Shown one piece after another: positions 57,820-63,999 of a stretch of 64,000 nt of DNA; position 1 is the first letter of the stretch, and every line of letters starts with the position of its first letter. The notes beneath the pieces are model-generated. The model did not search any database and was not told where the DNA came from. It was given only the letters and a program-made list of their open reading frames with translations. Made by a program: the position numbers and the translations under genes. The stretch is from Natronorubrum sediminis (GTDB lineage: Archaea; Halobacteriota; Halobacteria; Halobacteriales; Natrialbaceae), in assembly GCF_900108095.1 (NCBI RefSeq), contig NZ_FNWL01000001.1, forward strand, positions 1,178,001-1,242,000. Direction: 5' to 3'.

Positions 57820-58378
57820 GTGGGAGAGAGAGCCTGGCTGCCGCGGCGACTGGGTCGGCAACGATCCAGTTGTACAACGTGATGTGACTCCTCGAGTCGC
57901 ATACCGCACACACCGTTGCCCGGCTCGTAGAGCCGCGTAACGCGCGCGAGGAAAGTCCCCCCACCTGTTCGGGCAGGTGACCGGATGCAAATCCGGAGCG
58001 GGAGACCGCTGGCTCTGGAACAGAAACGACACGTCTCGACCCGACCCATGATGCGTGCGAACCCGACCGAGAGGAAGGGGAGTTGACCCGCAGAGGAAGG
58101 GCGATTCGCGCGTCTTTGACGCGAGCGTCGCCGACAGGTGCGCGGCCACAGCCGCGAACCGCGTGTGGTCGCTTCGTTACACGGTTCGAACCCGTGGATC
58201 GCGTTCGACGCGATCGACCACACTCAGACGGTCGAGGATCGATGGAACGGCGAACCCTCACCGGTGCAAGTCCGTGCCGTGGTAGCCCGAACGCCCCGCG
58301 GCCTCGCCGCGGACGGCGCGGACGCTCAGCCGAATGCCGGGACGAACAGAAGGGGGCTTACTCCTCTCACCTACCTTT
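57820..58378 (+). ncRNA. rnpB: RNase P RNA
   Basis: The catalytic RNA that trims tRNA 5' leaders. The universal conserved region I gaggaaagtcc is at 57948-57958 and conserved region V acagaagggggctta at 58346-58360; their ccccc/ggggg bases pair as P4. Between lie typical P-helices, including a long GC-rich arm gtgtggtcg/cgaccacac. The 5' end near 57820 pairs with bases just after conserved region V (about 58362-58375) as P1. At ~560 bases it is longer than most archaeal RNase P RNAs (about 300-450), so the ends or an expanded arm should be checked. No protein gene overlaps in a credible frame. Confidence 0.88.
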
Positions 58379-59810: not shown

Positions 59811-59858
59811 CGTCCTGACGGAGATTTGAACTCCGGTCCCTGGCTCCGCAAGCCAAGA
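59811..59858 (-). pseudogene. tRNA-Arg(GCG) 3' fragment, probable attachment site of the integrated element
   Basis: Reading the minus strand, ttggc-ttgcgga-gccag gives an anticodon stem-loop with anticodon GCG, followed by a variable region, a T-arm cggag-ttcaaat-ctccg and the acceptor 3' strand tcaggac plus g. The matching 5' half (gtcctga acceptor strand, D-arm) is not found upstream: only cctga recurs at the wrong distance. So only the 3' half of the tRNA is present, as at the far end of an element integrated into a tRNA gene. AT-rich DNA begins immediately to the right. Confidence 0.65.
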
Positions 59859-60048
59859 GCCTCGTTATGGATACAACCACACTAAATGGCCGTATCAGGG
59901 GCTTTTGACTGTTTACCAGGTTGTTTTCGTCCGTGACAGTTCATAAATCGGACTGTGGGTATATAAAACCCATTGTATTGGAGTGGGACCAACGTACCAT
60001 ATTAGCTGCTACCAACTGGAAGGCGATATAATAAGTCAGAATGTACCG

Positions 60049-60579
60049 TTACTTCTTATCTGAGATTTCAGAGGCCAAATATTCTTTCGCTTTTGCCACC
60101 CATTCTTCACCGAATTTTCTCTGGTACATCGGTGATGCAACCCTTATACTTCCGTTTTGTAGAATGAATTCCCCACTCCGTTCTTCATCCGTAACTTCAA
60201 AGATTGAGGCATCTTCGTCAGGTATACTAATGATATTCGAGTTTTCAACAACACTGTGGTTCAATTCTCCTACTACTTCCGGCTTATCTGCTTCTTCTGT
60301 GCTGTCTAATTCATCTTCTCGGCTATCACTGAGCGCATCGTCATGGTTTCCTACGATTTCATCATGATTAGCTTTCTTATCTATGAGATCTTCACACATG
60401 GATGCTATTGCAAAGAACAGGAAATACGATATTCCCAAAGCGACAACAATGGAGGACAGTAGTCCTAATATTATGTTAACTGCGAACAAGACTGCTGAAA
60501 TAATGGCACCGATGAACCAAATTCCAACTGATCCAAGTAGGAAGTTTTTGAAGTATGGGTTTACGAAGTCACTTTCCAT
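60049..60579 (-). CDS. Hypothetical two-TM protein of the integrated element
   Basis: 176 residues. Two hydrophobic helices (about 12-34 and 38-60) near the N-terminus, an acidic linker (70-115), then a small domain with GEFILQNGSIRVASPMYQRKFGEEWVAKAKEYL. Codon use is AT-rich, unlike the flanking chromosome, and consistent with foreign origin. No family recognised. ATG 60577-60579 starts it. Confidence 0.75.
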   Translation of the reverse strand: MESDFVNPYFKNFLLGSVGIWFIGAIISAVLFAVNIILGLLSSIVVALGISYFLFFAIASMCEDLIDKKANHDEIVGNHDDALSDSREDELDSTEEADKPEVVGELNHSVVENSNIISIPDEDASIFEVTDEERSGEFILQNGSIRVASPMYQRKFGEEWVAKAKEYLASEISDKK

Positions 60580-60808
60580 TATTGTATTTCATTTTCATGA
60601 CTGGTTTTGAGAATTGTAAGTGTTATTGCCGTATGGTTATTATCGAGTGTAAACCGCCTAAATTGATATGTCCCAATAATTATCTCCTATATGGATATGT
60701 CTCTAATCATGATTACAACAAATAAATATAAGTATTGATATAATCCAATTCAAATTAGATGATGTCTCGAGCAGTCATCAACCAAAACCTTACTGACCGT
60801 TGACAACA

Positions 60809-60916
60809 ATGGGAGGCAAATTAGTTAGAACATTAAGCAATCTGACTGGCCACCGGCCAAGCGCAACTCACTCGCAAATTTTCGGGATTTTGAGAGCCAT
60901 TTGTATAGATGTTTAA
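60809..60916 (+). CDS. Possible 35-residue ORF
   Basis: ATG 60809 to TAA 60916. The peptide is mildly basic with several hydrophobic residues. No Shine-Dalgarno-like or TATA signal stands out. Listed only because the region is otherwise empty. Confidence 0.2.
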   Translation: MGGKLVRTLSNLTGHRPSATHSQIFGILRAICIDV

Positions 60917-60955
60917 ATATAGACAGGTAGAAAAAGAAGACAACTCCTCATTCTC

Positions 60956-60977
60956 GACTGGAAGGGGGAAACCAGTC
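60956..60977. repeat. Perfect 6-bp hairpin with purine-rich loop
   Basis: gactgg (60956-60961) and ccagtc (60972-60977) flank an aagggggaaa loop. The motif gactggaaggg is repeated at 61800-61810 as part of the larger inverted repeat, so the element reuses it. Confidence 0.6.
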
Positions 60978-61393
60978 TATCCCACTACAAGTGATCTCCT
61001 ATCTTAACCAGCTTATTGGCAAGCTGATTCCTTGAGTGTTTCAGTAGAACTGGAAGTAGCTATAGTAACTACTGAGTGAGGTAATGAAAGTTATTGCTAC
61101 GTGCATATTTCACTACACATATTGATGAATCATATGAAAGGTTTTATGATGATAGGAAACCTTTGATAGAGAGGACTGGTAATTCTATACCAACGGTCAG
61201 TTAGGAAACGTTACTTCTACTGCGCACGAATAACTCCATTTAACAACTTTAGAGTGCATATAACGTTTTCTAAGGCCTTCCCTATGGAAAAGATATTCTT
61301 GAGGATGAATTTATCGGCAATATTTACCAATCCAGTACGCCGTTAGATATGGTTAGAATAGATCTAATCTGTTCTAATATGATCTCTTATGGG

Positions 61394-61404
61394 ATATTTA
61401 TATG
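61394..61404 (+). promoter_or_regulatory. TATA box of the element's structured RNA
   Basis: atatttatatg is about 25 bases upstream of 61420-61424, where the GC-rich folded stretch begins. It gives a likely start for the RNA. Confidence 0.6.
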
Positions 61405-61419
61405 CCCGTGTATTACTTA

Positions 61420-61722
61420 GGGTGAGGCAGTATCCCCGGTGGTCGCTCACGCCGTTCGGGGATTCAAACCGGTTCTGATCGTGAGCTAAGCAAGTTCCCG
61501 TATTTGGTCAAGCAAATTAATCCACAGGGTTAGTTTGCTCGCTCCGCTGTGATGGATGGTGAGAGGCCATATCTGTAGGCAATGCCGGGGAATACAACCC
61601 GGAGTAGCTAATGAACAGGTGTGGTAAAACATCTCTTAGGTAGCGTCCCAAGCAAGAGCGGCTGAAGGGAACTGGCTTGGGGCGTTCTGCAACTTTGAAA
61701 AATTGTGGTATTGAATACCACA
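61420..61722 (+). ncRNA. Candidate novel structured RNA (~300 nt) of the integrated element
   Basis: A GC-richer island in AT-rich DNA, with no open frame and several strong helices. Pseudoknot-type pairings: gtgag (61422-61426) with ctcac (61446-61450), and atccccg (61432-61438) with cggggat (61457-61463). A 10-bp hairpin is at 61511-61520/61530-61539, ccggg/cccgg at 61585-61602, a 10-bp stem cgtcccaagc (61644-61653) with gcttggggcg (61675-61684), and a final perfect 8-bp hairpin tgtggtat/ataccaca (61704-61722). A TATA box precedes it. It is not tRNA, RNase P, SRP or box C/D in any way I recognise. Possible regulatory or catalytic RNA of the element. Confidence 0.55.
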
Positions 61723-61794
61723 GTGGTCAGTAACAAAATATATGTTACAATAAATGTAGTAACGATACTTAATCAAACCTTCAAAAGACATACC

Positions 61795-61920
61795 TTAGCG
61801 ACTGGAAGGGACCCTAATCCCATCACCTAACTATTTTCACTTCTATTCATTCAGTGTAAGAATTATATTACGGTTCCAATGGAAAGAGTAGATGAAACTC
61901 TCACCCCTTCCCGTCGCTAA
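61795..61920. repeat. 16-base inverted repeat pair, one mismatch, 94-base spacer
   Basis: ttagcgactggaaggg (61795-61810) and cccttcccgtcgctaa (61905-61920) are reverse complements except at one position. The spacer is AT-rich, without a gene. It might be the ends of a miniature element, a replication origin/terminator, or a stem of a long RNA. Confidence 0.75.
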
Positions 61921-62183
61921 AATACTCTGAATTGATTTCTATTGCAATTGTATCCTATTCAAAGTTAGAAGGGTTGCACACATTGTGACGAAGATTGGTA
62001 AGCAACCTACGTGGCACGAATTTCAATCACACTAATCAATGAGCGAGGGTCATACCTCGGATTCAGACGAAGGGCTTCATTGATCTGGTTGAGAGGAATA
62101 CTGATGGGATTTATTTATCCGATCTGATTGGGATGGAAGTTCCTCATAAGAAGTTGGCGAAGAAATTCCTTTACTCACCAAAT

Positions 62184-62816
62184 TCAATATTCTTCTAACA
62201 AGCTTTCTTTCTTCTCTTCAAATTCCCTATCTGTGATGATCTCTTCCTCCTTAAGGTCTTTAAGTTCACGGAGTTTTGTAGATATATCTGTGATTTGTTT
62301 CAGTTCATTACTCTCTTCTGGAACACTTTCTTTAGATCTAAGCGCGATTCTTTCGGTGTTTTTCTTCTTAGATAGTTTCTCATAGGCGACATTGCCAGCA
62401 CCAAACGTCCACAGGCCGGTTGCTAATCCAGTTAATGTATGGCCACCAATAGTACCGCCACTTGTATTCTCCATCACTACACGCTCGTTCTTTTGATCTA
62501 TCTCCGCGATCTCCCACCCTTCTGCTTGTCTATCTTCAACTTGTTCCCTTAACCCTGGATCACTTATTGATTCTAACCCTAATTTTTCTTCAGATTTAAC
62601 GTCATCTACAAGCTTAGAAAACGATTTGACCACTTCTCGCTTAGAAGCTTCGTACCCACAGCTATCACAGTAGTAGTCAAATGGAGTGAAAATGCGTCCG
62701 TTAGCAAAATCAAAAACACTTTCTCTTGTTCGGTAAATTTTATCTTCAGAACACTCTGGGCAAGGCTTGAAAATATCGTGTTCACCAGGCTCACTCTCCA
62801 ATTCAAACATACCCAT
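62184..62816 (-). CDS. Zinc-ribbon and SHOCT-domain protein
   Basis: 210 residues. A treble-clef/zinc ribbon with Cys19-x-x-Cys22 and Cys50-x-x-Cys53; a helical middle (60-110); a short glycine-rich hydrophobic segment (about 119-143, GGTIGGHTLTGLATGLWTFG); and a C-terminal SHOCT domain (about 178-210, LRELKDLKEEEIITDREFEEKKESLL). SHOCT modules often occur in mobile or secreted proteins as oligomerisation parts. AT-rich codon use. It is just downstream of the integrase on the same strand, 76 bases apart, so possibly co-expressed. Confidence 0.8.
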   Translation of the reverse strand: MGMFELESEPGEHDIFKPCPECSEDKIYRTRESVFDFANGRIFTPFDYYCDSCGYEASKREVVKSFSKLVDDVKSEEKLGLESISDPGLREQVEDRQAEGWEIAEIDQKNERVVMENTSGGTIGGHTLTGLATGLWTFGAGNVAYEKLSKKKNTERIALRSKESVPEESNELKQITDISTKLRELKDLKEEEIITDREFEEKKESLLEEY

Positions 62817-62892: not shown

Positions 62893-63999
62893 TCAGCCCA
62901 TTCGATTGAGGGCATCCCGTCGATCCTCGACAGGTGTTTGATCGTATCGTATTGTGGTTCTCTCTGACTTGTGGCGTAATTGGGCTTGTGCTGCTGCTAA
63001 CCCTTCCTCTCTCGTCATATACGTACCGACACTGTGTCGAATCGTGTACCAGCTAACTTGCCGGTTTTCGGTTGGAATCTCTGCTATTTCAAACAGTTTC
63101 TCTAATACCTGCCGGAGAGAACTTGTCTGATAAGGGTTCCCAAAGCGTGTGAGCCATAGCTGATCCGTCCCTTCATACAAGTCGTACTGCTTTCGCTCTT
63201 CTAACCATCGGTCAAGGGCCTTTGCTGTTCTGTCCTGTAGCCCAACAGTCCAATGGCCCTCATTTTTTGAACTCTCTTCTTTGGGGATTCGTAGTACTGC
63301 GTTATCAATGTCAATCCATGTCGTCTTTGCTCGCTCGACTTCCACCGGGCGAAGTCCAGCATCAAGACTGACCCATACCATGCTCGGGAACTTCCAACTG
63401 TTTGCTCGCTTCCAGTCGTCGGGGGTTACATCGGACTTGTTCTTGCTGAACCGTTGAGCAAGGTACGCTTTCCACTTGTCACGATTAGCAGCTGTTAGGT
63501 CGCTATACGCAGGGATTGAACCGTATTCTAAGGCCGCTTCTCGTATCTTACCGCGTTCCTCACGGGTTAGGAAGTCACGAGGCTCGCTACTACCCGAAGG
63601 TTCTGTGAAGACAATATCCGGTTCCCACAATTCGCTATTTCGTTCGTGGTGTTTGTACTTGAACAAGCGTTTGATGGAACTTTGTGTATTATTCCGCGAA
63701 TAGTCACTTTCGTCCCTTCGCGCCAACTCCTTCATGTAGTCGTTGGCATGGCTATGAGTGATTTCGGTCGTGTACCCCTTCCCGTCGTTCCAAGTCCACC
63801 GATAAAACTTGTCTAACCGGGCTGCGGTGTTTTTCACTGTTGCTTCCGCATACCCTTCGACCATATCCGGGTCTTTACCGAACACCAGCAACCACTCTAC
63901 GAGCTTCTTTCGGTGGTCTTTGTAATCGAGTACCTGCCGGTCGTTTAACCACTCTCTCGAGGGTTCGGGAACCAGTTTGATACCGTCAGTGTCTACCAT
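62893..63999 (-). CDS. Tyrosine recombinase (integrase) of the element
   Basis: 368 residues. N-terminal SAM-like core-binding domain (about 20-130) and catalytic domain (about 140-368). Catalytic residues: Arg217 in AGLRPVE, Lys245 region, Arg321 (YTIRHSVGTY, where the usual His of the HxxR box is Tyr318), His343 (LRHKSERTT) and nucleophile Tyr352. It should integrate and excise the element at the tRNA site near 59811. The ATG lies at 63997-63999, at the very window edge, so an upstream start cannot be excluded. Codon use is AT-richer than the chromosome. Confidence 0.9.
   Translation of the reverse strand: MVDTDGIKLVPEPSREWLNDRQVLDYKDHRKKLVEWLLVFGKDPDMVEGYAEATVKNTAARLDKFYRWTWNDGKGYTTEITHSHANDYMKELARRDESDYSRNNTQSSIKRLFKYKHHERNSELWEPDIVFTEPSGSSEPRDFLTREERGKIREAALEYGSIPAYSDLTAANRDKWKAYLAQRFSKNKSDVTPDDWKRANSWKFPSMVWVSLDAGLRPVEVERAKTTWIDIDNAVLRIPKEESSKNEGHWTVGLQDRTAKALDRWLEERKQYDLYEGTDQLWLTRFGNPYQTSSLRQVLEKLFEIAEIPTENRQVSWYTIRHSVGTYMTREEGLAAAQAQLRHKSERTTIRYDQTPVEDRRDALNRMG

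Follow-up and report, generated by a model that had tools for sequence, protein, structure and literature searches.

GOLLD and ROOL are large, ornate RNAs of bacterial phages that are often found near tRNA islands (PMC12286853). The Vibrio satellite PLE makes abundant non-coding transcripts (PMC7567579). In haloarchaea, the halovirus SNJ2 has a replication module with Rep-Arvir (DUF7845) and, likely, a conserved DNA hairpin as the origin (PMC13107129).

The locus described here lies in a stretch of 64,000 nucleotides from Natronorubrum sediminis (genome G000), referred to below as the window. An earlier note, made from the letters of the window, had proposed that a mobile element maintains a novel structured RNA. 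This proposal is now strongly supported by a family of 16 members that displays covariation, has no Rfam match and has an integrase beside every copy.

The RNA and its family

The structured RNA extends over 61420..61722 on the + strand, its start being placed from the TATA box and its end from the terminal hairpin. The TATA box, ATATTTATAT (61394-61403, +), precedes 61420 by about 25 nt, in agreement with the promoter suggested in the earlier note. The GC-richer island described there was confirmed (GC 0.52 at 61400-61699 versus 0.35-0.43 on either side), as was the absence of a coding frame, the longest open reading frame being 51 aa. The predicted fold of 61420-61722 reaches -116.4 kcal/mol, compared with -95.1 +/- 5.2 kcal/mol for dinucleotide shuffles (z -4.1), none of which equalled the native value in 100 trials.

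The overall layout, about 300 nt in length, comprises a 5' hairpin or pseudoknot domain followed by a multi-helix core inside a closing helix, all on the + strand. A perfect 7-bp hairpin (61432..61463, arms 61432-61438/61457-61463), also present in relatives, forms in the 5' part, and its loop (61445-61451) forms a perfect 7-bp pairing with CGTGAGC at 61480..61486. The pseudoknot-like 5' domain of the earlier note can thus be recognized, and, by eye, it recurs with different yet matching bases in G005, G055, G428 (strands CGTGGGC/GCCCACG) and, less cleanly, G010; a simple hairpin takes its place in the other members. The closing helix (61493..61499 with 61667..61673), supported by partner permutation, surrounds the conserved core (61506..61665), in which covariation supports 44 modelled pairs. 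The core includes a 12-bp hairpin with the loop ACA (61512..61538, arms 61512-61523/61527-61538), which is helix 1 of the covariation test and displays compensatory changes in seven of its 11 modelled pairs. A 10-bp arm (61566-61575/61616-61625) and a tip hairpin with the conserved loop GAAYACAA seen in the alignment (61585..61602; helix 7 of the test) also lie within it. The 12-bp hairpin and the 10-bp arm each contain more than one G-U pair, so the claim that the long helices have at most one did not hold. The RNA ends in a perfect 8-bp hairpin with the loop TGA (61704..61722, arms 61704-61711/61715-61722), which had been predicted and recurs in G010 with compensating base changes.

A DNA search of 199 related genomes returned three true relatives: G005 (84%), G010 (80%) and G055 (75%), G005 and G055 being Natronorubrum texcoconense and Natrialba hulunbeirensis according to the contig names in the genome collection. 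Another candidate from this search, L005, was a chance match within a transporter-permease gene. A covariance model of the core (R1) was built from the alignment of the four relatives and then refined once; R1 added four copies and a second model, R2, yielded further ones. In total, 15 haloarchaeal genomes, which represent four families of a single order, yielded 16 RNAs. Within this order the RNA occurs sporadically, in 12 of 392 genomes. A third model of the core, R3, found no additional copies in 391 genomes of the class. In a sample of 216 genomes drawn from the whole phylum, R3 with strict filters detected no copy that was not already known, and none outside Halobacteria.

Comparison with Rfam 15, which includes archaeal RNase P, SRP RNA, tmRNA, group I and II introns, HEARO, GOLLD and ROOL, gave no match at the gathering score for the window copy and none that was relevant up to E 10. 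The same comparison with all 16 loci returned just neighbouring tRNAs and sub-threshold chance matches. The earlier note had named a match to a known family, such as a group I/II intron fragment, as a refutation, and none emerged for the window copy or for any other member. The RNA class is called new because membership in any Rfam family was tested for and not found. Literature searches, which covered open-access papers, gave no description of such an RNA.

The 16-member alignment (A9) places standard pairs in 90% of pair cells, compared with 71% in shuffles. Changes on both sides occur at 29 of the 44 pairs versus 20 in shuffles, with none of 500 as high, so the RNA passed the test of compensatory changes in homologues that the note had set for itself. 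The covariation score is 0.576 versus 0.219 (0 of 500 shuffles), and slid alignments collapse. Since A9 was fitted to the covariance model, which favours the structure, an independent test was carried out on the closing helix, which lies outside the model. The 5' and 3' strands of each member pair at a mean of -11.4 kcal/mol with their own partners and -6.9 kcal/mol with those of other members, and none of 20,000 permutations was as good. The RNA strand is fixed by two U-G pairs, one conserved in all 16 members and the other in 15, because they would read A-C on the opposite strand. Furthermore, conservation in most members extends to loops such as GAAYACAA and to the segment UUAGG-AG. Judged from these alignments, this is a genuine structured RNA family, with compensatory changes beyond chance. 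That the family is real and resident beside integrases is almost certain.

TATA-like boxes comparable to that of the window copy lie 89-148 nt before the core in eight of the 16 members, compared with 1.8 expected. In six of the eight box-less members, a small open reading frame, which encodes an RHH-like protein in several of them, ends 57-97 nt upstream of the core. The TATA box in some members and the upstream frame in others suggest that the RNA forms a transcription unit by itself or else the distal part of one.

The elements that carry the RNA

The integrated element presumed in the earlier note was delimited by an exact direct repeat of 49 bp. The left copy (59811..59859) corresponds to the 3' part of tRNA-Arg(GCG). 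The two copies are found at -1695 and +2684 relative to the RNA core, the second within the tRNA-Arg(gcg) gene about 190 bp past the end of the window, and bound 4,379 bp. The element encodes, all on the - strand, a 176-aa protein of no significant family (60049..60579), a 210-aa protein with C-terminal SHOCT-like and zinc-ribbon-like matches below the cut-off (62184..62816; 51% to a relative in G496), and a tyrosine integrase of lineage I (62893..63999, with its start just beyond the window; PF00589, E 9e-14). The RNA lies between the 176-aa and 210-aa proteins. With an integrase and attachment repeats in a tRNA gene, the window copy has the attributes of a site-specific integrative element. 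In the sister species G001, a decayed copy occurs at the same tRNA-Arg (L078 7697-9115); the left end, including the DNA of the 176-aa protein, and a piece of the integrase are about 92% identical, and the RNA-bearing middle is deleted. An archaeal RNase P RNA gene (RF00373, 116 bits; 57922-58372), unrelated and chromosomal, lies about 1.4 kb before the end of the element.

Element ends were mapped for the members with exact repeats. There are six such elements of 3.1-14.8 kb: that of the window and those of G005 (6,499 bp, tRNA-Thr), G010 (3,122 bp, tRNA-Val), G055 (14.8 kb, tRNA-Gly), G428 (5,793 bp, tRNA-Thr) and G496 (4,990 bp, tRNA-Thr). Wherever the ends could be mapped, the RNA is clearly inside a tRNA-inserted integrative element. 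At the attachment site of G055 (L021, L025), tandem copies of an 89-bp repeat with the tRNA-Gly 3' end flank the element, suggesting repeated insertion at one site.

An integrase is found 0.6-8.3 kb from the RNA in all 16 copies. The 15 genomes contain 154 integrase matches in about 59 Mb, approximately one per 380 kb, and a random site would therefore lie as near an integrase in roughly 4% of cases. The smallest element, G010, comprises an integrase, a lipoprotein-like open reading frame and the RNA, and the only gene type that it shares with the window element is the integrase, of a different lineage. In the window element, G005 and G010, the RNA resides in a non-coding stretch of 1.3-1.6 kb, about 1 kb of which is conserved at 68-71% between G005 and G010; in the window element, this stretch is the 1.6 kb at 60580-62183. 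No match to a replication-initiator family, DUF7845/Rep-Arvir included (PMC13107129), was found among the element proteins scanned. Just 3' of the RNA in the window, a 16-bp inverted repeat, TTAGCGACTGGAAGGG ... CCCTTCCCGTCGCTAA, was observed at 61795-61810/61905-61920. Its motif CGACTGGAAGGG appears again upstream at 60955-60966 and, as CGACTGGAAGG, flanks the RNA on both sides in G010. These sites may be bound by a protein, serve as an origin or belong to a second small RNA.

Three integrase lineages were found with the RNA. Between the window element and G005, 80% of the RNA core is shared and the integrases have no BLAST similarity; between G005 and G496, the integrases are 87% identical and the RNA cores 57%. 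The pair G322 and G263 shares 68% of the RNA and 82-88% of the restriction-modification (R-M) genes, with integrases of different lineages. By these comparisons, the RNA is exchanged between elements independently of the integrase. The possibility of an obligatory partnership with one integrase lineage was rejected, given these three lineages and the fact that most lineage-I integrases of related genomes belong to genomes without the RNA. Small tRNA-inserted elements with related lineage-I integrases and without the RNA also exist in G136 (5.5 kb), G009 (3.7 kb) and G002 (6.9 kb); the RNA is therefore not needed by every such element. Inspection of three RNA-less elements for a hidden divergent copy revealed neither a match to the model nor a common set of motifs.

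The cargo of the larger elements consists mostly of R-M or other defence genes: type I R-M systems (G301a, G322, G263), type IIG enzymes (G055, G076, G478), HsdR-N, HNH and HEPN-like proteins (G005) and PDC-S31 (G496). Except for the integrase, no protein is constant across the elements. A small HTH-HNH gene on the same strand begins about 90-480 nt after the RNA core in G301a, where its frame is interrupted, and in G301b, G243, G484, G437 and G478. These HTH-HNH genes (L037 7815-8237; places in L034, L046, L049, L054 and L055) are related to halovirus HNH genes. A protein of 597/616 aa (L050 6062-7855, L036 9506-11356), found in two elements whose integrases differ and 73% identical between them, contains a P-loop-like motif and perhaps a DNA-binding domain at the C-terminus; it is possibly a replication protein.

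Searches of limited sensitivity, in which the first-pass filter yielded no candidates, did not find the RNA in seven halovirus and two plasmid records, nor was there any true match in IMG/VR scanned with two specific patterns, also of limited sensitivity. One IMG/VR candidate, L039, proved to be coding sequence. Related integrases were observed beside a viral tRNA-Thr gene in Halorubrum virus VOLN27B (L059, 33514-37617) and beside a type IIG restriction enzyme gene in HCTV-6 (L058), in both cases with the RNA not found there. These integrase regions resemble such elements inserted in virus genomes.

Possible roles of the RNA

It is proposed, with about even chances overall, that this is a mobile-element RNA that serves the element by acting on its DNA or circle. 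For a role in maintaining or spreading the element itself, the chances are put slightly lower. Service to the element is considered the most likely role for three reasons: nothing is constant apart from the RNA and an integrase, whatever its lineage; the smallest element contains little more; and the RNA lies within a conserved non-coding stretch of elements with no recognized replication gene. The RNA would be transcribed either on its own promoter or downstream of a small gene, and would then fold. Host factors are invoked as partners, since the integrase, itself of varying lineage, is the one protein that the elements have in common; with them, the folded RNA could act on the surrounding DNA or the excised circle. 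By priming or controlling, it may influence replication, copy number or excision in elements without a recognisable replication gene. The large RNAs of phages and satellites provide a precedent (PMC12286853, PMC7567579), whereas the existence of related small elements without the RNA argues against this reading. More tentatively, and with chances well short of even, the RNA may be a mobility module, swapped among elements with unrelated integrases, that maintains or spreads elements lacking a replication gene, either by priming or controlling their replication or by exploiting a helper.

The same RNA-less sister elements, together with the defence-rich company of the RNA, make a cargo role the main rival. 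The RNA would then be a passenger of benefit to the host, with antiviral defence or regulation, in concert with host proteins, as its most likely task. Defence genes are present in most of the larger elements, and the patchy distribution across the order is as expected for cargo. However, every copy found is near an integrase, the RNA has no constant protein companion, and integrase, RNA and R-M cargo shuffle independently, which leaves this role rather unlikely. Satellite, HNH-linked and DNA-only roles are less likely than either the element-serving or the cargo role. It is improbable that the elements are satellites of haloviruses whose RNA hijacks the packaging or gene expression of a helper. 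The elements are small, no capsid genes were recognized in the minimal ones, their integrases have relatives in haloviruses (47% to HCTV-6, 37% to HRPV-9), and the PLE transcripts offer a parallel (PMC7567579), but no helper is known and the halovirus and IMG/VR searches, within their sensitivity, did not find the RNA.

The downstream HTH-HNH gene of six elements could point to a partner nuclease, the pair forming a homing module or an RNA-directed nuclease. This is very improbable, since the gene is absent next to the RNA in ten of 16 members, there is no match to the Rfam HEARO or group I/II intron models, the loops are conserved whereas guide loops vary, and complementarity to the attachment sites is not above chance. 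A guide RNA for the integrase, similar to the IS110 bridge RNA, is likewise not supported: the longest match between RNA and attachment site averages 7.9 nt for true partners versus 8.1 nt for swapped ones. Scarcely probable at all is a role at the DNA level, with the region working as single-stranded DNA, such as a hairpin replication origin. The region is non-coding and SNJ2 likely has an origin of this kind (PMC13107129); the strand-specific G-U pairs, the preceding TATA box and a multi-branched, pseudoknotted fold of 300 nt, unlike a nick-site hairpin, speak for RNA.

Large structured RNAs are a hallmark of catalytic and scaffolding functions, and to our knowledge few are known in archaea besides the universal ones. 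Here, the RNA is the sole feature besides the integrase that is common to otherwise very different haloarchaeal elements, some of them of 3-4 kb. If it controls replication or spread, the persistence of gene-poor elements would be explained; if it is defence or regulatory cargo, it would represent a new RNA-based host function. The size of the minimal elements permits direct tests in haloarchaeal laboratory strains.

Comparison with known systems

Like GOLLD and ROOL, this RNA is a highly structured non-coding RNA of mobile elements near tRNA genes. GOLLD and ROOL exceed 600 nt and belong to bacterial phages, whereas the haloarchaeal RNA is about 300 nt long, resides in integrative elements and has no Rfam match in any of its 16 members.

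The PLE transcripts of Vibrio and the regulatory RNA of P4 are likewise produced from small, gene-poor integrative elements. However, P4-type RNAs work by pairing with complementary leader sequences (PMC7567579), while the haloarchaeal RNA has a larger multi-helix fold with conserved loops, and its elements, unlike PLE and P4, have no known helper virus. With HEARO, the omega RNA of IscB, the similarity is a small HNH gene beside the RNA in six haloarchaeal members. The neighbour here is a 140-aa HTH-HNH protein without the RuvC part, and in ten members it is absent beside the RNA, in contrast with a constant, IscB-like neighbour.

The SNJ2 replication module (PMC13107129) also places a non-coding structure near the genes of a haloarchaeal integrative element, and the SNJ2 integrase is related to lineage II (36%). 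In contrast with SNJ2, the scanned proteins of the RNA-bearing elements have no DUF7845 match, and their structure is RNA-like, strand-specific and about 300 nt in length. The nearest known kind is that of the large structured phage RNAs and the satellite non-coding RNAs, from which the haloarchaeal family differs in sequence, size, fold and domain of life.
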